Below are positions 48,905-58,601 of a DNA stretch of 64,000 nt, piece by piece; within the stretch, counting starts at the first letter, position 1, and every line of letters begins with the position of its first letter. The DNA is from Theionarchaea archaeon (lineage in GTDB: Archaea; Methanobacteriota_B; Thermococci; Methanofastidiosales; SZ-28-30), in contig JACVGT010000007.1 in assembly GCA_018992685.1 (NCBI GenBank), positions 1 to 64,000 of the forward strand. The letters are read 5' to 3'. The notes beneath the pieces were generated by a model. That model was not told the origin of the DNA, made no database searches, and saw only the letters and a list, made by a program, of their open reading frames with translations. The translations under genes and the position numbers were made by a program.

Positions 48905-49825
48905 CTATTTCTTTCCCTTCTCGTAGTGTTTCCCAAGAGCTGCCGGTGGTACAGCTCTCTTCACTGCTCCAGCCAAGACCAGAATAGTCAGAACATAGGG
49001 AATCATCTGAATGAACTGATTGGCAGCCACTGTCCCCTGCAATTTCATTTGCAGAGCATCAGTAAAACTGAAGAGAAGACTTGCTCCAAAGGCTCCTGCA
49101 GGGTTCCATTTGCCAAAGATGTTCGCCGCCAGAGCGATGAATCCTCTCCCTGCAGACATGTTTTGGCTGAACAGGTTCAACCATCCCAGGGACAGGTAGG
49201 CACCCCCCAACCCCGATAGCATGCCGCTGGCTGTTACAGATAAATACTGAATCCGGTGCACGTTGATTCCCACGGTATCTGCAGCCTCTGGGTGCTCACC
49301 TACTGCCCTAATTCTCAATCCCAGAGGAGTCCTAAACATGATGACCCAGGCAGCAACAACAATCACAATCATGATGTATACCAGAGGGTTTTGCTGGTCA
49401 AAGATATCCTTGAGGTAGGGAATGTCTCTGATCAGTGGGATGGACAAGGGCTTCAATCCGGAAACAGGGTCTGACGCTCCCCTATTTCCCCAGATGATCT
49501 GGAGCAACAGCGTGGTAAGCCCAAGAGAAAGAATATTCACTCCCACTCCACTGACGACCTGATTTGCTTTGAACTGGATACATAGTACCGCATGCAGCAA
49601 TCCAAAGGCCCCGCCTGCCAGGACTGCGCACAGCACACCGATCCAGGGATTTCCCAGAAAATGTGTGCCCACTACACCAGCAAAAGCACCCATCAGGATC
49701 ATGCCTTCCAGTCCGATATTAATGATACCACTGCGTTCTGAGTACGCGCCCCCGATGGAGGCCAGGGCAATAGGGGGAGATATCCTTAAGGTTGCACCCA
49801 GCAGTATGGCAATACTAGAAAGCAT
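48905..49825 (-). CDS. Nucleoside-type ABC transporter permease, second subunit
   Basis: The 306-residue protein has about eight membrane helices and the signatures of the BmpA-linked permeases (SGIINIGLEGMILMGAFAG, FRTPLGLRIRAVGEHPEAADT). It forms the membrane channel with the permease just upstream. The frame is open from a TTG at 49885, but the ATG at 49825 overlaps the previous gene by 11 bp with a ribosome site (AAGGAGG) in front. It is the last gene of the transporter operon. Confidence 0.92.
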   Translation of the reverse strand: MLSSIAILLGATLRISPPIALASIGGAYSERSGIINIGLEGMILMGAFAGVVGTHFLGNPWIGVLCAVLAGGAFGLLHAVLCIQFKANQVVSGVGVNILSLGLTTLLLQIIWGNRGASDPVSGLKPLSIPLIRDIPYLKDIFDQQNPLVYIMIVIVVAAWVIMFRTPLGLRIRAVGEHPEAADTVGINVHRIQYLSVTASGMLSGLGGAYLSLGWLNLFSQNMSAGRGFIALAANIFGKWNPAGAFGASLLFSFTDALQMKLQGTVAANQFIQMIPYVLTILVLAGAVKRAVPPAALGKHYEKGKK

Positions 49826-50894
49826 TGGCAATCCCTCCTTTCCTGATTTTCTTGAAGATTCTGAACATTTCAGGAGCTGCCACAAACAGTATCACGATAC
49901 CCTGGATCACCACCACCAGATCTGTGGGGACATTGGTCATCTGTTTCATGACCATCCCTCCGTTCCGCAGAGCACCAAACAGCAAAGCACCCAGTACTAC
50001 TCCCACAGGATGGTTTCTCCCCAGAACAGCAACAGCGATCCCGTCAAATCCGTACCCCGGGGAGAATCCGAAAATAAACCGTTTGTGCAGTCCCAGTACC
50101 TCGCCTGATCCACCCAGTCCTGCCAGCATTCCTGATATGAACATCGATATGATAATGCTTTTCTGGACACTTATCCCCCCGTATTCTGCAGCTGTGGGGT
50201 TGAGTCCTACTGCTCTGATTTCGTATCCCAGGGTAGTCCTATACAGAATATAGTACGTGACACCGACGCAAATGAGAGCCACGATTATGGCTGCTGATAA
50301 CTGGGTGGAGGGTACCAACCGTGGAAGCTGGGCTGATGGTGTAACAACATCAGTCTGAGCAATCCATCCTTCAGCCTTCAAAGGATAGTTGGCCAGATAG
50401 TTGCACAGGAGCACACCGATGTAATTCATCATAATGGTGGTAATCACTTCATGGGCACCCACCCTGGCTTTCAACACACTGGGCACCAGAGACCATGCAC
50501 CACCTGCAAGGGCCCCGGCTCCCAGGGCCAAAGGAATGTGAAAGAACCAGGGAAGCCAGGCAAAGTTGATCCCTACCACGGCAGCAGTAATGGCCCCAAC
50601 GTACAGTTGTCCCTCACCACCAATGTTGAATAACCCACATCGAAAGGCGAAGGCCACGGTCAGCCCTGTAAAGATGAGGGGTGTTGCCCTTGTGAGGGTC
50701 TGGGCAAAATCATACGTACTGCCGAATGCACCTTCGTACAGTGCCTTGTATGCCTCAAGAGGCGATGAGCCTGCAAGATATACAATCACTGCTCCCACCA
50801 AAAGGGCAGCAATAACAGCAATGATTGAGATAAAAATGTCCATCAGACTTTCTTTTTGAATAACCTGAGTTATTTTTATTAATCGTGGATTCAT
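49815..50894 (-). CDS. Nucleoside-type ABC transporter permease, first subunit
   Basis: The 359-residue membrane protein has eight or nine helices, with the family motifs GGEGQLYVGAITAAVVGI and YEIRAVGLNPTAAEYGGIS. It pairs with the second permease. The ATG at 50894 overlaps the ATPase stop (ATGA) and has a CAGGTGG ribosome site. This supports cotranscription and coupled translation. Confidence 0.92.
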   Translation of the reverse strand: MNPRLIKITQVIQKESLMDIFISIIAVIAALLVGAVIVYLAGSSPLEAYKALYEGAFGSTYDFAQTLTRATPLIFTGLTVAFAFRCGLFNIGGEGQLYVGAITAAVVGINFAWLPWFFHIPLALGAGALAGGAWSLVPSVLKARVGAHEVITTIMMNYIGVLLCNYLANYPLKAEGWIAQTDVVTPSAQLPRLVPSTQLSAAIIVALICVGVTYYILYRTTLGYEIRAVGLNPTAAEYGGISVQKSIIISMFISGMLAGLGGSGEVLGLHKRFIFGFSPGYGFDGIAVAVLGRNHPVGVVLGALLFGALRNGGMVMKQMTNVPTDLVVVIQGIVILFVAAPEMFRIFKKIRKGGIANAF

Positions 50895-52411
50895 GCGTGT
50901 CCACCTGCCATCAATAATCCCAGTTCTTCTTCAGTGGTCTTCTGAGGATCTCGCTCTCCCACAATTTTCCCTTCGTAGATGACAGCGATCCTGTCAGAGA
51001 GACAGCGAACCTCATCTAAATCTGCAGAAATGAGAAGTATGGCCTTGTCCTTTTTCCTCATGCTGAGAAGGGTTTCATGGATGAACTCGATTGCGCCCAC
51101 GTCGAGACCTCTGGTAGGCTGTGAAGCGATAATAATCTCGGGCTCTCTTCCCAGTTCTCTGGCCACAATCACTTTCTGCTGGTTTCCACCTGACAGATAT
51201 TTGACCTCACTGTGTACCCCAGTTCCTCTAATGTCAAAGGTCTCCACCAGCTCGGACGCATATGAATCCACCTTATCATATTCCATTCTGAACCCGCGGG
51301 AAAAAGGAGCCTTAAAGTGGGATCCCAGTATCAGATTCTCGGATAGAGAGAAATCCTGGATGAGCCCTCTCTTCTGGCGATCTTCAGGGATGTGGGATAC
51401 TCCTGCGTTGATGAAGTCCCTCGGGGAGGAATGTGTTAGATCTTCCCCGTTTACAAGAATCTTCCCCCCGCTTGGGCTTCGCAGTCCCGTTGCCGTTTCT
51501 GCCAGTTCCAACTGGCCATTGCCTTCAACTCCCGCAATGCCAAGAATCTCACCTTTCCGCAGTTCCAATGTTATCCCCTGTAGGGCTTTCACTCCTCTCT
51601 CATTGTATGCTTCCAGGTTCTGCATCTGCATCACAGCCCCCTTTGGGGGGTGAGGAGGTTTTTCCACTACCAGGCAGACTTCTCTGCCCACCATCATTCT
51701 TGCCAGACTGGCAACATCTGTTTCCCCGGTGTGAACTGTTCCCACCAGTTGTCCTTTTCTCAGCACGGTGATGCGGTCACAGGTCGCCATGGGTTCCTTC
51801 AGTTTGTGGGTGATGAAAATGATAGTCTTTCCTTCTTCTTTTAACGATTTCATAACTTTGAACAGTTCTTCCCCTTCTTGTGGGGTCAAGACTGCTGTTG
51901 GTTCATCCAGAATGAGAATTTCAGCTCCCCGGTACAATGCTTTCAGAATCTCTACTCGCTGTTCAATGCCTACTGATATATCCTGGATCTTGGCTCTGGG
52001 GTCTACAGCAAGACCATACCGTTTTGAGATTTCTTCAACATCTCGTGCTGCCTTTTCTCTGTCCATGAGGAAATGAGTCTCCGGCTCAACACCCAGGACA
52101 ACGTTCTCAGCCACAGTGAAGGGAGGCACTAACATGAAGTGCTGGTGGATCATGCCAATACCCAGTGAGATCGCATCATTGGGATTTGTTATCGCAGTGG
52201 GCTTACCATTAACAGAAATTTCACCAGAATCAGGCTGGTATAGCCCATACAAGACGTTCATTAACGTGGTCTTTCCCGCACCGTTTTCTCCAAGAAGAGC
52301 ATGAATTTCTCCTTTTCTAACTGAAAAAGTAATATCGTCATTCGCCAGAACACCAGGGAAGCGCTTGGTTATGTGTTGCATCTCCACAGCATTGATGGGT
52401 TCTGCATTCAT
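50891..52411 (-). CDS. Nucleoside-type ABC transporter ATPase
   Basis: The 506-residue protein has two fused ABC domains, as in sugar/nucleoside (RbsA, YufO-like) ATPases. The first has GENGAGKTT and LDEPTAVLTP; the second has a degenerate Walker A (GVEGNGQ) and LSGGNQQK. It energises the uptake of nucleosides captured by BmpA. The ATG at 52411 is about 26 bp from a TATA-like box (CTTTTTAAG, about 52432-52442), showing that the transporter has its own promoter separate from the peptide-maturation genes upstream. Confidence 0.93.
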   Translation of the reverse strand: MNAEPINAVEMQHITKRFPGVLANDDITFSVRKGEIHALLGENGAGKTTLMNVLYGLYQPDSGEISVNGKPTAITNPNDAISLGIGMIHQHFMLVPPFTVAENVVLGVEPETHFLMDREKAARDVEEISKRYGLAVDPRAKIQDISVGIEQRVEILKALYRGAEILILDEPTAVLTPQEGEELFKVMKSLKEEGKTIIFITHKLKEPMATCDRITVLRKGQLVGTVHTGETDVASLARMMVGREVCLVVEKPPHPPKGAVMQMQNLEAYNERGVKALQGITLELRKGEILGIAGVEGNGQLELAETATGLRSPSGGKILVNGEDLTHSSPRDFINAGVSHIPEDRQKRGLIQDFSLSENLILGSHFKAPFSRGFRMEYDKVDSYASELVETFDIRGTGVHSEVKYLSGGNQQKVIVARELGREPEIIIASQPTRGLDVGAIEFIHETLLSMRKKDKAILLISADLDEVRCLSDRIAVIYEGKIVGERDPQKTTEEELGLLMAGGHA

Positions 52412-52431
52412 TGCCATCATAAGCGTATTTC

Positions 52432-52442
52432 CCTTAAAAAGG
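52432..52442 (-). promoter_or_regulatory. TATA box of the transporter ATPase operon
   Basis: CCTTTTTAAGG on the minus strand is centred about 26 bp before the ATG at 52411, giving the ATPase-permease genes an independent start. Confidence 0.5.
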
Positions 52443-52534
52443 CTACCGGTTGCATCTCTGGTGGCAGTATTTGATGGGCGAATTCTCACGATAACAGCTT
52501 AGGCAGTTCCTGCAAAATCAGACACCTCGCCCCT

Positions 52535-54379
52535 CTACTTCCTCATGGCTGTCTTTCTTTCATGATTTTCGGTTCTAGCCTCTGCCCCTGGCACTCTTTT
52601 GTCTGCTCTCAGCACTGAGATGATGTTCTCGAGAGACTGGTCATAGTACAATACGCCCCTTTCTCTGAGAATCTCCAGTATGTGCAAAAGCTCTTTCTCC
52701 TCCAGATGGGAAAAGTGTTGCTGTACCTGGGTGAATGACGTTATGCTGTCACAGAAAACTAGAAGGTCGGTCTCGTCTCTGCTAAAGGTACAGGAAAGAG
52801 ACCTTGATCCTTTTTCCTTAAAGGCAGAACAATCGGGATATTCTGTCCACTGATAATCGCTTCCAGCCCGGGAATAAAACTGCAGAAGTCTTTGAAAGGT
52901 GTTCCACAAAAGGTAGTGGCGAATTCTCCCTGCAAAGAATCCAAAGAATTCAAATCGTTCCCCCTCTGGCAGCTGCAAGACAGATGCGATTTCTGCCCAC
53001 ATGGGGTCTTTGTTGTAGGCATCCCTTTCATGTTCTGACATCTCATTGTAATATGGTGATCCCTTGTACAGTGTGAAGTACTTGGGGACAATGGAATACT
53101 TCCTCAGGAAGAATCTCAGAAATCTCAAGTTCACACAACTCTCCAGGACGTCTTCCTCAGTTTCAGGTGGCGTCTCTGCTACAAAATTCCCTTTGATCTC
53201 GAGGTTGTGTTGATCCCCGAGCTTGAGAGCCTGTATATTGTGGGCAAAAGAGTGTCTCTTTTCCATTTTCTTCAAGAGAGCATCAGTCATTGCTTCAAAT
53301 CCGATCTGCACGATTTCAAAACAAACCTTTTTCATGGCACGTGCTGTATCGGGGTTGATGAAGATTGGAGATGCTTCTGCAAAAAGGCGGTAGGGACGTC
53401 CTCTTCTTTCAGAACTTTCCACAATCAGGGCAAGCAGATGGTGGAATCGCTTCTTGTTACCGGGGAGTTCAGTATCTACAAATACGAATGTGTCACCACC
53501 GTGTCTCTTGGACTGGAATTCCAGTTCTTCGACAATGTTCTCAGGAGATCGAGCCCGATATGAGAATTCCTCATTCAGAACGCAAAATTTGCACCTGTTC
53601 CAGGGGCAGGAGCGCGACCCCCAAATGGGGATGATGACCCGCATGTCTTCATGAATGTGGGTTTTCAGTGCCGCAAAATAGTCTGTGTGGTCTGCAAATG
53701 GGTATGAATCCAGATCACAGCTTTCAGAATGCTTGTTTGTTGAGATGATGGCGGCACCATCCCGGTACACCAGATGAGGGATCTCGGTGAACGTTCCCTC
53801 TCGTATCCCCTGAATCAGATGAACCAAAGGGTATTCTCCCTCCCCCCATACAGCGTAGTCAGCCAGCTCAAATACCTTCATAAAGGCGTGAGCCTGTTCA
53901 TCATTGCGAATCCCTCCAATGACGATCTGTATTTCGGGGTTTAATTCTTTCAGTCGCCTCATTACATAAGAGCTCAGAAGCCACTGGTAGGTCTTTAGAG
54001 TAAATCCCGCCAGAGGTTCTTTGTAGAGGCCATTTTGGTATATGTAGTCATCGATTTTTGTTCGAAGTGTGTCTACAAAGGGAGGTATTTTCCCCTGATC
54101 AAAAAAGGGTGAAAAATACTGGTCGAGAACAGTCGTCTCGTGATGGGCACCTGAGAGATGTCTCACTGTATACAGAACGGGAGTATTAAGAGAGGACAAG
54201 GATGAAAACACAGGATAGTCCCCAATGTGATCCTGGAGTTCTGACAGCTCCTCAGCAAGTATTAGATTCCAGTAGATATTTGTCACAGAGATTCCCCTTG
54301 ATTGCAGGAACCCTTTCAGATATCCCAAAGCAGGATTGGGAATATCGTAACTGTAGGGGGGCAAACAGTTTAGTATCAT
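52535..54379 (-). CDS. Radical-SAM protein resembling RiPP C-methyltransferases (B12-binding type)
   Basis: The 614-residue protein has an N-terminal cobalamin-binding-like region (LGYLKGFLQSRGISV at the start; IVIGGIRNDEQ and VWGEGEYPLVHLI at 150-190) and a radical-SAM domain with the cluster Cys at residues 258, 263 and 266 (CX4CX2C, not the classical CX3CX2C). The surrounding sequence SCPWNRCKFCVLN resembles RiPP maturation radical-SAM protein 1 (TIGR03975), whose members methylate unactivated carbons of peptides. The start ATG overlaps the preceding stop and follows GGAGG. It would modify the peptide encoded at 57108-57215. Its exact reaction is inference. Confidence 0.8.
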   Translation of the reverse strand: MILNCLPPYSYDIPNPALGYLKGFLQSRGISVTNIYWNLILAEELSELQDHIGDYPVFSSLSSLNTPVLYTVRHLSGAHHETTVLDQYFSPFFDQGKIPPFVDTLRTKIDDYIYQNGLYKEPLAGFTLKTYQWLLSSYVMRRLKELNPEIQIVIGGIRNDEQAHAFMKVFELADYAVWGEGEYPLVHLIQGIREGTFTEIPHLVYRDGAAIISTNKHSESCDLDSYPFADHTDYFAALKTHIHEDMRVIIPIWGSRSCPWNRCKFCVLNEEFSYRARSPENIVEELEFQSKRHGGDTFVFVDTELPGNKKRFHHLLALIVESSERRGRPYRLFAEASPIFINPDTARAMKKVCFEIVQIGFEAMTDALLKKMEKRHSFAHNIQALKLGDQHNLEIKGNFVAETPPETEEDVLESCVNLRFLRFFLRKYSIVPKYFTLYKGSPYYNEMSEHERDAYNKDPMWAEIASVLQLPEGERFEFFGFFAGRIRHYLLWNTFQRLLQFYSRAGSDYQWTEYPDCSAFKEKGSRSLSCTFSRDETDLLVFCDSITSFTQVQQHFSHLEEKELLHILEILRERGVLYYDQSLENIISVLRADKRVPGAEARTENHERKTAMRK

Positions 54380-55704
54380 TCATGGGCCTCCTTTTGCTTA
54401 CTGACATATGTTTTCACCTGTGGCAGCCCGAAAACCTGCCTGGTAAAATCCACGGTGAAACAGCCAGGAGCATCCAGTGTTCCTTTCTCTCTCAATGCAA
54501 TGGCAGGGCATCCCCCCATACACCGGGGAAGCATGACGCAGGCTTTACACTCAGTAATGGCCAGGGGGTTGCGGGCCATCCACGAGTAGTATGCAGGTGT
54601 TTTGTCCAGAGAACCACGAGAGTTCAGAGACCCCACAGCATGGCGGGTGTCTCCTACCAAAGACATGCACTTGTAGACACGGCCATCCACATTGATGATG
54701 TGAAACCAATCAGTAATACCAGCACACAAGGAAAAGTACACACCAATTCCAAAAGGGAGTGTGGTGAATCCTTTGTGAGCAGCCATTTCCATGACTTCAC
54801 TGAAGAGATCTGAAGTCCCCGGATATCCGTAAGAACTGTAGTAGTGGGTACAGTAATCCATGCGGGGAGTAACCGTCCCAAAGTAGGTATGGGCCTTCTC
54901 AAGGCCAGCTTCTCTCAACATTTCAAGAAAGGTAATGATATTGTCTTCCCATACGTTAATTCGCATAATCAGATTCATGCCATGATCTTCAACACATTGG
55001 GCACCCTCTACCACTGATTGCAGGCTGCTTGTCTCATCAGGGAAAACCCTCCTGGTGTGGTGGTAGTACTCAGGTGCATCAAAAGTGATATGAATATCTG
55101 CTACCGTGAACTGTGAGAGGTTGTCGAGTCCTTCAGGAGTAAGGAGAGTTCCATTGGTGAAGAGCTTGATGAGGAGAGAAATACCTGCTTCACTACATGC
55201 CTCTTGCAGGGTTTCAGTAAGAGAGGTTATGCACTCTTGATTCAAGAGTGGTTCTCCTCCGTAAAGACTCACAAAGAGCGTGTCAATGCCTCGTACGATC
55301 TGATTCTCAGCAAAGGTTACCCCTCTTTCTGCTACCTTCTTGCTCATATGCCCAGTGCAGGCAGAAGAATTCCTGTAGCAGTACCTACAGTTCAAGTTGC
55401 ATTCGTGCGTGACAATGAAGTTCAAGAATGCAACTCTCCCAAGAGGAGAGCCCCGATATCCTGTAGAGGGGAGGCACCACTTCTTCTGTTCCAAGGAAGC
55501 CTGTATCAAGTTCATCTCTTGACCGGTGTCCTCTATGAGAAGTCCCTGCTTTGATAGTGCTTCAATAATCTCAGGGGAGCCTTTTCCGGTCATGAGGACG
55601 TCATACATTTCAGAATCAATCACTGTGAGAGACCCGTTCAATGTATTGTATACAAGGAAATCCTCTCTAAATGGGATAATAAAGCAGTACTGTGATCTCT
55701 GCAT
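54376..55704 (-). CDS. SPASM-domain radical-SAM peptide maturase (second)
   Basis: The 442-residue protein has a short N-terminal recognition-like segment (VYNTLNGSLTVIDSEMYDVL), a radical-SAM core with ECNLNCRYCYR (Cys 102, 106, 109) and YGGEPLL, and a C-terminal SPASM region (CMSLVGD, CKACVMLPRCMGGCPA, APGCF) that holds extra Fe-S clusters. This architecture is that of ranthipeptide/sactipeptide-type maturases that form thioether or C-C bonds in a peptide. A TTG at 55713 overlapping the previous stop is an alternative start. It is cotranscribed with its paralog upstream. Confidence 0.88.
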   Translation of the reverse strand: MQRSQYCFIIPFREDFLVYNTLNGSLTVIDSEMYDVLMTGKGSPEIIEALSKQGLLIEDTGQEMNLIQASLEQKKWCLPSTGYRGSPLGRVAFLNFIVTHECNLNCRYCYRNSSACTGHMSKKVAERGVTFAENQIVRGIDTLFVSLYGGEPLLNQECITSLTETLQEACSEAGISLLIKLFTNGTLLTPEGLDNLSQFTVADIHITFDAPEYYHHTRRVFPDETSSLQSVVEGAQCVEDHGMNLIMRINVWEDNIITFLEMLREAGLEKAHTYFGTVTPRMDYCTHYYSSYGYPGTSDLFSEVMEMAAHKGFTTLPFGIGVYFSLCAGITDWFHIINVDGRVYKCMSLVGDTRHAVGSLNSRGSLDKTPAYYSWMARNPLAITECKACVMLPRCMGGCPAIALREKGTLDAPGCFTVDFTRQVFGLPQVKTYVSKQKEAHE

Positions 55705-55709
55705 AATAA

Positions 55710-57053
55710 TCAAACCCAGATGATCTTTCCCGCCTTGAACCGGTCAGGAAGCTTCTTTTCGAGGTACCAACGAAGCTGATGTTTCATTTCCTGGTACGGT
55801 GCATAGCATCCAACTGCGTGGAATGTCCCATGCTTTTCATATGCAACAGCAGCACATCCTCCCCCACATGAGGGTAGCATCTGGCACTCACGACATTCCG
55901 GTATCTGCAGGGGGTCTCTGCTCATCCAGTCGTAGTAGGTCCATGTATACTCTGGTATGGTACCGTCTTCTGAAATATGACCAATGGAATGGTTTTTCTG
56001 CCCCACGAAGGTGAGACACTTGTAAAGATCTGCATGAGGATCTATGATGAAGGTTCCTTCCCCTAGGAATCCACAAAAGACGTGAGCTGGCTTGTGGGTG
56101 CGAATGACAGCAGCCGCTTGACCTTTTTGATCCACAATATCTCTGAATTCAGCAAGTACCTCACGGGCTTCTTCCTCTTTAATGCACTTGGAGTAGTCCT
56201 TACATGCTTGAGTTGATGCCCCCACTGTACCACAGCGCACAGGGACATTCTTGAATCCCCTCTCCTGAAGCTCGTCCAGCAGCTCACCGATGAACGGTCT
56301 GCTTTCAGAATCCACGTTCACCCTAAAGCTCACTCCGACGTTTTGGTCCTGCAGAATGTGAGCTGATTGCATCATGTCATCAAAGGTACCTCCTCCACTC
56401 TTGTAGAATCGTTTGGTGTCGTGGATGCGTTTGGGACCATCCAGCGTGATCTGTACGTAGTCTGTGTGGTAGCGCTTCAACGTTTCAGCTATTTCAGGTG
56501 TGACCAGAGTACCATTTGTCACCATCATTGTCACGTATGAGATGCCGTGGTCTTCTGCCCAGGAAAAGCAGGAATCCATAATGTACTCAGAATCGTCGAA
56601 TCTGAGCAGTGGTTCACCACCATACAGCGACACAGAAAATTCCCGCGCGTGAGTGTCTTCCACGTATTTCTTTATGAATTTCACAGTTCTTTCCCTGGTG
56701 TCAGCATTCATTGTCCCGCGGAATAGCTCTCCTTTTCCTTCATAGCAGTATGGACATGCTAGATTGCAGGCATATGTCGTTATGAGCATGAAATGGGGAA
56801 AATCCACCGTGTATTTCCTGTATTCATATCCTACCTTGAATTTTCGAGATTCATCAAAATCATCTTCTATGATTACCTTGAGCGCTGCAAGAGATTTGAA
56901 CAAGTCAGAATCCAGAATGTCAATATTCCCGGCTTTCAAAGCTTCCTTCAGCTCTTCATCTATTCCTATTACTGCACCACTCATCATGTTGGCCAACAGG
57001 TATTCTCCAGGAGTCTCTGTGGGGATAACTATGTTGAAGTTTGACACTTTCAT
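55710..57053 (-). CDS. SPASM-domain radical-SAM peptide maturase (first)
   Basis: The 447-residue protein has an N-terminal segment resembling those that read peptide leaders (FNIVIPTETPGEYLLAN and MSGAVIGIDEELKEAL), a radical-SAM core with ACNLACPYCYE (Cys 96, 100, 103), YGGEPLL, and a SPASM region (CLTFVGQ, CRECQMLPSCGGGCAA, GCYAP). It is likely to act first on the peptide. A GTG at 57062 is in frame, but the ATG at 57053 has a GAGGTGA ribosome site. It lies about 50 bp after the precursor peptide gene, past a hairpin terminator. Confidence 0.9.
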   Translation of the reverse strand: MKVSNFNIVIPTETPGEYLLANMMSGAVIGIDEELKEALKAGNIDILDSDLFKSLAALKVIIEDDFDESRKFKVGYEYRKYTVDFPHFMLITTYACNLACPYCYEGKGELFRGTMNADTRERTVKFIKKYVEDTHAREFSVSLYGGEPLLRFDDSEYIMDSCFSWAEDHGISYVTMMVTNGTLVTPEIAETLKRYHTDYVQITLDGPKRIHDTKRFYKSGGGTFDDMMQSAHILQDQNVGVSFRVNVDSESRPFIGELLDELQERGFKNVPVRCGTVGASTQACKDYSKCIKEEEAREVLAEFRDIVDQKGQAAAVIRTHKPAHVFCGFLGEGTFIIDPHADLYKCLTFVGQKNHSIGHISEDGTIPEYTWTYYDWMSRDPLQIPECRECQMLPSCGGGCAAVAYEKHGTFHAVGCYAPYQEMKHQLRWYLEKKLPDRFKAGKIIWV

Positions 57054-57068
57054 GAGGTTCACCTCAGG

Positions 57069-57097
57069 AAAAAAGAAAGGCAGGTTGAACTGCCTTT
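57069..57097 (-). terminator. Hairpin and T-tract between peptide gene and first maturase
   Basis: AAAGGCAG (57076-57083 on the plus strand) pairs with CTGCCTTT (57090-57097) around a 6-base loop, and on the minus strand a CTTTTTT tract follows (57069-57075). This would end most transcripts after the short peptide gene and let some read into the maturase genes, as often seen in RiPP operons. Confidence 0.65.
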
Positions 57098-57107
57098 TGT
57101 TATAGAC

Positions 57108-57215
57108 TTACACATAGGGGTGGCAAATTCTGCAGCACCAGGAACCAGTTCCTTCCGTGATGCACAGAGGCTCCATGATTTGCTCTTCTGCTTCGATGAG
57201 GATAGTCATGTTCAT
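57108..57215 (-). CDS. Candidate RiPP precursor peptide, 35 residues
   Basis: This short gene encodes a peptide with an acidic, leader-like N-terminal half (residues 1-17, with several Glu and Ile/Leu/Met) and a core-like C-terminal half (residues 18-35) containing Cys at 18, 27, 28 and 31, Trp at 26, and a Gly/Thr/Ser-rich spacer. The peptide ends in His-Pro-Tyr-Val. The gene is directly upstream of two SPASM radical-SAM maturases and a C-methyltransferase-like enzyme, in the same direction. The ATG at 57215 follows a purine-rich ribosome-site-like stretch (GGAAGTGG) and two TATA-like boxes. Precursor function is inference, but the context is strong. Confidence 0.7.
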   Translation of the reverse strand: MNMTILIEAEEQIMEPLCITEGTGSWCCRICHPYV

Positions 57216-57233
57216 AGATTCCACTTCCTATTG

Positions 57234-57266
57234 CTATATAAAGTTTCTCTTTATCTTTATATACTT
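57234..57266 (-). promoter_or_regulatory. Tandem TATA boxes of the peptide cluster
   Basis: TTTATATAG lies at 57234-57243 and AGTATATAAAG at about 57256-57266 on the minus strand. The farther one would give a leader of about 20 nt containing the ribosome-site-like GGAAGTGG before the ATG at 57215. This indicates an independent start for the RiPP genes. Confidence 0.5.
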
Positions 57267-57560: not shown

Positions 57561-58601
57561 TTAATCCCAGGTGTATTCACCGGCCTCGTCAATACCAGTG
57601 GGAACCTTGATTTCGCCAGATGCGATCTGCTCCCTGTAGTCTTCAATGATGTCTCGTATGTCATTAGGCACGTGCTCGCAAGCACCAACACCATTCTCTT
57701 TTGCGCCAAAGCTCTGTATGCCGCCTGCAAAAGTCCCGTCGATTACCTGCCGTATGGTCTCGTATACAGCTACATCCACACGCTTTATCATACTGCATAA
57801 GAAGGTCGTTACCGGTACTCCCTCAATGGTGTCGCACTGATCCGCATCTACGCCAATGACCAATCCACCACGTTCAAAAGCCGCCTGGATAGCTCCCAAG
57901 CCAGATCTTCCGGCAGCAGCGAACACGATGTCTGCCTCTCCGTCATACTGAGCAAGGGCAAGCTCCTTTCCTTTTGCAGGGTCTACCCAGTCGCCCACAT
58001 ACTTCCAGGTGACCTCAACATCTGGATTGACGTACTCGGCTCCAAACTTGTAGCCAGCCAGGAATTTTCGAATCAAGGGTATGTCCATTCCACCTACAAA
58101 TCCAATCATATCAGTTTCAGTTTTCAGACCAGCAGCTGCTCCTACCAGGAAACTACCTTCGTTTTCCCTGAATACAAGAGAAGCCACATTAGGTTTGTCT
58201 ACCACCATGTCCACGATCGCAAACTTCTGGTCGGGGTATTCATCTGCAACAACAGTGATGGCATCTGCCTGATCAAATCCTATACCTATTATCAGTGCAT
58301 ATTCCCCGGACTTGGCGTACTGCCTGTGGAATCCTTCGTACTCAGCGATGGCTGTAGGTTCAACATAGTCAAATTCAATGCCGAAATCATCTCTAGCCTT
58401 CTTGATACCTACGTAACAACTATCATTGAAGCTCTTGTCTCCTAGTCCACCAGTGGCAAAGACAACAGCAATTTTCAATTCGGGGGGTGGGGGTGTAGAA
58501 GTTGGTGTCGGAGTTGTGGTTTCTTCCTCCTGTCCGATGCATCCCAATGTAAGGGAGCACAAAACTACCAGGGTGAACAGCATCTTAATACTTTTGTTCA
58601 T
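57561..58601 (-). CDS. BmpA-type nucleoside-binding lipoprotein
   Basis: The 346-residue protein has a lipoprotein signal (lipobox LTLGC, Cys 21), a short Thr/Pro-rich linker and a BMP family periplasmic-type binding domain (GGLGDKSFNDS near residue 52, GFVGGMDIPLI near 165, VFAAAGRSGLGA near 225). BmpA proteins capture purine nucleosides for the ATPase-permease genes found at 48905-52411. The ATG at 58601 has a GGAGGG ribosome site, and a TATA-like box near 58637 is well placed. The peptide-maturation cassette separates it from its transporter partners, which is unusual. Confidence 0.92.
   Translation of the reverse strand: MNKSIKMLFTLVVLCSLTLGCIGQEEETTTPTPTSTPPPPELKIAVVFATGGLGDKSFNDSCYVGIKKARDDFGIEFDYVEPTAIAEYEGFHRQYAKSGEYALIIGIGFDQADAITVVADEYPDQKFAIVDMVVDKPNVASLVFRENEGSFLVGAAAGLKTETDMIGFVGGMDIPLIRKFLAGYKFGAEYVNPDVEVTWKYVGDWVDPAKGKELALAQYDGEADIVFAAAGRSGLGAIQAAFERGGLVIGVDADQCDTIEGVPVTTFLCSMIKRVDVAVYETIRQVIDGTFAGGIQSFGAKENGVGACEHVPNDIRDIIEDYREQIASGEIKVPTGIDEAGEYTWD

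Follow-up and report, generated by a model that had tools for sequence, protein, structure and literature searches.

A predicted cluster for a ribosomally made, radical-SAM-modified peptide and its many paralogous loci in a genus of Theionarchaea

What does a Cys-rich open reading frame (ORF) of 35 residues do next to three genes for radical S-adenosylmethionine (SAM) enzymes in an archaeon? We addressed this question in the first 64,000 nt of contig JACVGT010000007.1 of Theionarchaea archaeon (assembly GCA_018992685.1), hereafter the window, which lies in contig 13 of a 3.03 Mb genome (G000). An original prediction, made from the sequence alone, had proposed here a cluster for a ribosomally synthesized and post-translationally modified peptide (RiPP), and the short Cys-rich gene, the two SPASM genes and the third radical-SAM gene that it described were all borne out on the minus strand. 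The identification as a RiPP cluster is well supported because the peptide is under purifying selection, the four genes co-occur in a second genome, and Cys-rich precursors of their own accompany many of the paralogous SPASM genes. A short conserved precursor gene beside modifying enzymes, as expected of a RiPP cluster, was found, in two genomes only. We favor, at a probability of about 0.75, a compact biosynthetic cluster in which the peptide would be made in excess through attenuation at a hairpin, receive thioethers from a SPASM pair and be modified at carbon by a B12-type enzyme. Within this scheme, what we infer is the attenuation, the binding of the leader, the formation of thioethers, the pairing of the SPASM proteins, the methylation and the order of the steps.

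The elements of the cluster are listed below in the direction of transcription. SpA and SpB denote SPASM-1 and SPASM-2, and L001 is the locus in the nearest named relative, Theionarchaea archaeon SZ_28-30 (G001).

57255..57263 (-): TATA box TATATAAAG preceded by A-rich bases resembling a B recognition element; putative promoter of the peptide gene, read from the sequence; the relative retains it in the form TATTTAAAG
57221..57228 (-): GGAAGTGG, a weak Shine-Dalgarno-like sequence 5 nt upstream of the precursor ATG and identical in L001
57108..57215 (-): putative precursor peptide gene, 35 aa, with leader-like residues 1-17 and Cys-rich, core-like residues 18-35
57069..57097 (-): hairpin AAAGGCAG-UUCAAC-CUGCCUUU followed by CTTTTTT, a putative terminator or attenuator between precursor and maturases
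55710..57053 (-): SpA, SPASM radical-SAM maturase 1; NF038107 (CefB) 383 bits against a cut-off of 600, Fe-S motifs intact
54376..55704 (-): SpB, SPASM radical-SAM maturase 2; NF038107 219 bits against 600, all Fe-S cysteines kept
52535..54379 (-): B12-type radical-SAM enzyme with the SAM-cluster motif CX4CX2C, overlapping the SpB stop codon by ATGA; TIGR03975 163 bits against 282

Is the short ORF a gene? SZ_28-30 was the one related genome available for comparison of the cassette, and L001 is apparently the same stretch as C154 of G001 (L047). The minus strand runs from a BMP binding-protein gene through the 35-aa ORF, SpA, SpB and the B12-type gene to the genes for an ATP-binding cassette (ABC) ATPase and two permeases, and the gene order is identical in the relative. 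Enzyme genes standing without a peptide gene had been named as a case against the prediction; the peptide gene and the three enzyme genes occur together in G001 as in G000. The precursor, MNMTILIEAEEQIMEPLCITEGTGSWCCRICHPYV, has Cys at positions 18, 27, 28 and 31, as predicted. Four silent changes and one replacement (R29K) separate the ORF from that of SZ_28-30, so that 34 of the 35 residues are kept, the non-Cys half included, and the stop codon has changed from TAA to TGA. The synonymous-versus-nonsynonymous check suggested earlier therefore returned a conserved frame, with a ratio of nonsynonymous to synonymous substitution rates (dN/dS) of 0.053 (Fisher p = 0.005, from five changes in total). 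At the nucleotide level, the ORF and the hairpin-bearing spacer are each 94% identical to the relative and the stretch from the promoter to the Shine-Dalgarno site is 86% identical; for the 261 nt upstream of this stretch the value drops to 63%. This comparison indicates that the ORF is under purifying selection: a test on five changes is modest, but the place where conservation falls agrees with it.

We regard the peptide gene as real because of conservation and context, not because of the Cys content of the ORF by itself. Four or more Cys are not unusual in a short ORF, since 49 of the 611 window ORFs of 25-60 aa have at least four. Among 115 genomes of the phylum, the precursor is present only in the two genomes of the genus; other weak matches in these genomes, and those in plasmids, were attributed to chance. 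Comparison with NCBIfam and Pfam gave no family match for the precursor.

Which reactions might the SPASM proteins carry out? SpA likely starts at the ATG at 57053 behind GAGGTGA, as an alternative GTG at 57062 overlaps that Shine-Dalgarno site, and SpB likely starts at 55704. Both proteins contain CX3CX2C followed by CX18C, CX2CX5CX3C and CX15C, the complete SPASM set, in keeping with the two SPASM radical-SAM proteins of the prediction and with the CX3CX2C and auxiliary-cluster cysteines expected of ranthipeptide maturases. NF038107 was the best family match of both, followed by the TIGR04463, Clo7bot, geopeptide and PapB models. In Thermococcales, relatives of this CefB/CefA ('Cys-every-fifth') system encode, directly 5′ of a single SPASM gene, a precursor that is short, rich in Cys and preceded by a strong Shine-Dalgarno site. 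The window differs in that both scores fall far below the curated cut-off and the Cys of its peptide are not spaced at about every fifth position; moreover, the third gene has no B12-type counterpart at the Thermococcales loci examined. PapB/CteB-type ranthipeptide (SCIFF) maturases share the SPASM architecture, the fold and Cys-rich substrates, but the PapB model reached 161 bits against a cut-off of 340 and the SCIFF model 99 against 425, and the window has two SPASM genes plus a B12-type enzyme. The nearest PDB sequence to SpA is 5WGG, and a fold search with the SpA model returned 5WHY/5WGG first ('Structural Insights into Thioether Bond Formation in the Biosynthesis of Sactipeptides'); the model is only moderate (predicted local distance difference test, pLDDT, 65) and the fold match adds nothing beyond the sequence evidence.

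By analogy with these relatives, thioether crosslinking of the precursor is likely, and crosslinking at all four Cys is plausible. The maturases would hold the N-terminal half of the peptide, residues about 1-17; strands and helices ahead of the SAM domain of SpA could, from their secondary-structure pattern, be a RiPP recognition element. The SPASM proteins, probably paired, would then abstract hydrogen from core residues to form thioethers to Cys 18, 27, 28 and/or 31. PapB accepts Cys-Xn-Asp/Glu substrates and forms thioethers in them (PMC9413430). The segment Cys18-Ile-Thr-Glu21 resembles such substrates and would suit a Cys-Asp/Glu link. The same Cys-Glu spacing is seen in the CALE of a repeat precursor described below, although two cases are a hint only.

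Is this cluster unique in its genus? At E <= 1e-30, G000 has 11 SPASM genes that are related to SpA and G001 has 22; at the same threshold none is seen in the 19 remaining genomes of the order, and Thermococcales have 1-3 where any. A census of loci (L numbers) built from similarity searches gave about 14 distinct SPASM loci besides that of the window in G000 and G001, obvious orthologs being paired, most of them with a different short Cys-rich ORF behind a GGAGGTGA-type Shine-Dalgarno site. These include MKALRVNKKLWTNVLIVDMNESPSLCEIIVTPYGVCGCGGCCCAFYCRTLIC at L041 (ortholog in L055), a CALEVQPTF-repeat precursor at L038 and L052, three MKCEKVE... peptides at L043, three related peptides at L046, and pairs of MYTKAEIKEISMEIDQCMCC... 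peptides at L042 and L056. No precursor was seen at L037 and L045, where both SPASM pairs lie near contig ends, and no clear short precursor at L039 and L051. A PqqD-type protein is encoded at L039, L050 and L103. Across the loci examined in the two genomes, short ORFs that are rich in Cys and follow a strong Shine-Dalgarno site were 4.6 times denser in the non-coding DNA up to 700 nt from SPASM genes than in the remaining DNA between genes (22 in 19.4 kb versus 14 in 56.4 kb, p = 7e-6). The 14 background ORFs include several precursor-like ones (L046, L050, L103), which makes the enrichment conservative, and some of the 22 probably occur by chance (L051, L054, L106); the precursor of the window, with its weak Shine-Dalgarno site, was left out of the 22.

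Several of these loci show features of their own. The CALEVQPTF repeats are exact, with five full copies and one partial copy in G000 (L038:6883-7110, -) and four in G001 (L052:7550-7726, -), so that the copy number differs between close relatives; a gene for an MFS transporter lies 3′ of that SPASM pair. The precursor at L053:956-1195 (+) has three FCATLP cores with charged segments between them. After it come a single SPASM gene, a gene for a 378-aa protein in which all that resembles SPASM is a C-terminal remnant, and a B12-type radical-SAM gene truncated at the end of the contig. A different cluster in the same genome as the window, L103:3212-8456 (+), combines a Cys-pair peptide, MINVPMVFEGPALLANTMVPLGRGTNVCCYNDTDGDYYCCIKTEVL, with two short genes of the radical-SAM kind, one for a PqqD-type protein and one for a B12-type radical-SAM enzyme. 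At L104:8500-8604 (+), a 34-aa single-Cys peptide, MKFNVKKVETVSTTAMAIVDDAGGPWMESKNQCL, has a strong Shine-Dalgarno site and is followed by a hairpin with a T-run and a SPASM pair; its genetic plan is like that of the window cluster, yet the peptide is not Cys-rich. A motif NKK[L/T/M]W, likely a recognition element, stands soon after the start of several precursors (L041, L048, L049, L050, L055). Two Thermotogota metagenome-assembled genomes carry SPASM genes and precursors with the leaders MEYINEPVDVG and MEFFNLPSS (L002:2714-3077, L003:1897-2771). These leaders resemble MEWIVEP of the Thermococcales Cef-like precursors, which suggests exchange between domains.

Why are there two SPASM genes? 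At least two adjacent SPASM genes are present in the window, in its ortholog and at L037, L038, L039, L040 (three), L041, L044, L045, L046, L048, L049, L051, L052 and L055. Pairs of this kind thus stand in at least nine loci, and many of these loci differ greatly in their precursors. In the tree, the partners at L037, L044, L045 and L046 separate into two sister clades, each of them supported at 100%, and the gene order is A-B in two of these loci and B-A in the other two; parallel partner clades despite swapped gene order argue for a retained partnership. The recurring pairs suggest two-enzyme maturation as in the sactipeptide thuricin CD, whose two radical-SAM/SPASM enzymes TrnC and TrnD form a tight complex in which the radical chemistry of only one partner is essential (PMC12093266). 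That system likewise acts on Cys-containing precursors, but it is bacterial and has two of them.

The 'two different SPASM maturases' of the original prediction might instead act serially, each installing its own type of crosslink, independently and not in one complex. This alternative falls a little short of even odds. SpA and SpB are only 31% identical and both have complete Fe-S motifs; each forms a long separate branch in the tree, the deeper placement of which is unresolved, and they are old, separate paralogs. The data accord with two distinct maturases, but cooperation of the two as a pair is no less likely given the thuricin CD precedent (PMC12093266), the recurrence of pairs beside very different precursors, and the parallel clades at four loci, which fit an obligate partnership. 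Between the two genomes, dN/dS is 0.079 for SpA, 0.151 for SpB and 0.101 for the B12-type gene; within a cooperating pair, we speculate that the faster-evolving SpB could be a helper like the thuricin CD partner whose radical chemistry is not essential.

What does the third enzyme add? Its predicted CX4CX2C motif was located at C258, C263 and C266, and the protein aligns over nearly its whole length (residues 6-577) with TIGR03975, the RiPP C-methyltransferases, differing from this family in scoring below its curated cut-off. We did not assign the cluster to CefB or TIGR03975 because both cut-offs were tested and neither was reached. Pfam gave a Radical_SAM match, and the B12-binding domain PF02310 scored 25 bits, below the gathering score of 32. 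B12-type paralogs of 36-53% identity are present in the same two genomes, and several adjoin SPASM genes or short precursors (L040, L050, L103, L104). Following the SPASM proteins, the enzyme would add a further carbon modification, most likely methylation. The TIGR03975-type methylation proposed earlier becomes one option among others. The claim is weaker than that of crosslinking, since linking two carbons is also within the repertoire of B12 radical-SAM enzymes; BipD forms a biaryl bond (PMC12707348). A non-methylating enzyme that makes another bond, such as an aryl or C-C crosslink with Trp26, His32 or Tyr34, would agree with the low TIGR03975 score and with this C-C crosslinking in RiPP pathways (PMC12707348), but we consider it unlikely: the best match is to a RiPP C-methyltransferase group, and of the reactions described for B12 radical-SAM enzymes in RiPP pathways methylation is the most frequent (PMC12707348), as in ApyD, whose product is beta-methyltyrosine (PMC10635010).

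How might one promoter serve both substrate and enzymes? Of the tandem TATA boxes predicted for the peptide gene, the upstream box (57263-57255) is kept in the relative and the second is not. The hairpin at 57097-57069, which had escaped the original prediction and was found in this follow-up, has an eight-pair stem; its stem, loop and T-run are unchanged in L001, and stretches containing it gave z values of -2.5 and -3.1. A T-rich stretch or a hairpin with a T-run also lies 3′ of at least six paralogous precursor genes (L042, L044, L046, L049, L103, L104). The 35-aa peptide would be made in excess from its own promoter, the hairpin and T-run passing only part of the transcripts into the enzyme genes, so that precursor transcripts would outnumber enzyme transcripts. 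A Cys-codon-rich ORF ahead of a terminator-like hairpin and an operon also recalls classical attenuation, in which translation of the Cys-rich end would control termination and the true substrate would be encoded elsewhere, but a regulatory leader peptide is very improbable, as conservation would usually lie mainly in the regulatory codons, not in 34 of 35 residues with the non-Cys half included (dN/dS 0.05), and as paralogous loci with other Cys-rich peptides, several of them tandem-repeat or multi-copy and some without a hairpin, fit substrates.

Several points weigh against a RiPP cluster of this design. The peptide is carried by only two genomes and its selection test rests on five changes; the precursor and the enzymes lie below the cut-off of every curated specific family; the B12-binding match is under the Pfam gathering score, and the structure model of the third protein reached a pLDDT of 32; and the comparison of core and enzyme co-evolution is limited to one genus. 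No protease or exporter gene was found inside the cluster; leader removal and export would fall to proteins encoded elsewhere.

The set of SPASM clusters across the genus is a larger finding than the window cluster by itself. We tentatively propose, as a view with less than even odds, that obligate SPASM pairs underlie an extensive and rapidly diversifying RiPP programme in an uncultured archaeal genus, and that the window cluster would add to this programme a cobalamin enzyme to yield a crosslinked, C-methylated peptide. Radical-SAM RiPP clusters have been predicted in many archaea; in the literature consulted, the archaeal RiPPs characterised by experiment are haloarchaeal lanthipeptides (PMC12144867). 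In a literature search, such a maturase combination was not found described for any archaeon, and a search on Theionarchaea RiPPs and Cys-every-fifth, with most subscription journals outside it, returned nothing on the window system; products of this type are not known to be described for the lineage. With its very small, strongly conserved precursor and its trio of radical enzymes, the cluster is well suited to bench work, and the approximately 14 further loci with repeat-type, multi-core and multi-copy precursors offer a system for the co-diversification of enzymes, partners and substrates that also bears on why SPASM genes stay paired.

The cluster is flanked on both sides by the genes of one importer.

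57561..58595 (-): lipoprotein of the BMP family that binds the substrate of the importer; its gene lies upstream of the cassette
48905..52489 (-): remaining components of the nucleoside-type (BMP) ABC importer, an ATPase and two permeases, directly downstream; ATPase 47-51% identical to those of Thermococcales operons

The lipoprotein and ATPase genes are adjacent in all six Thermococcales loci checked, and the RiPP cassette stands between them in both genomes here. The simplest reading is that the cassette was inserted into the importer operon, the genes of which are probably not part of the peptide pathway.

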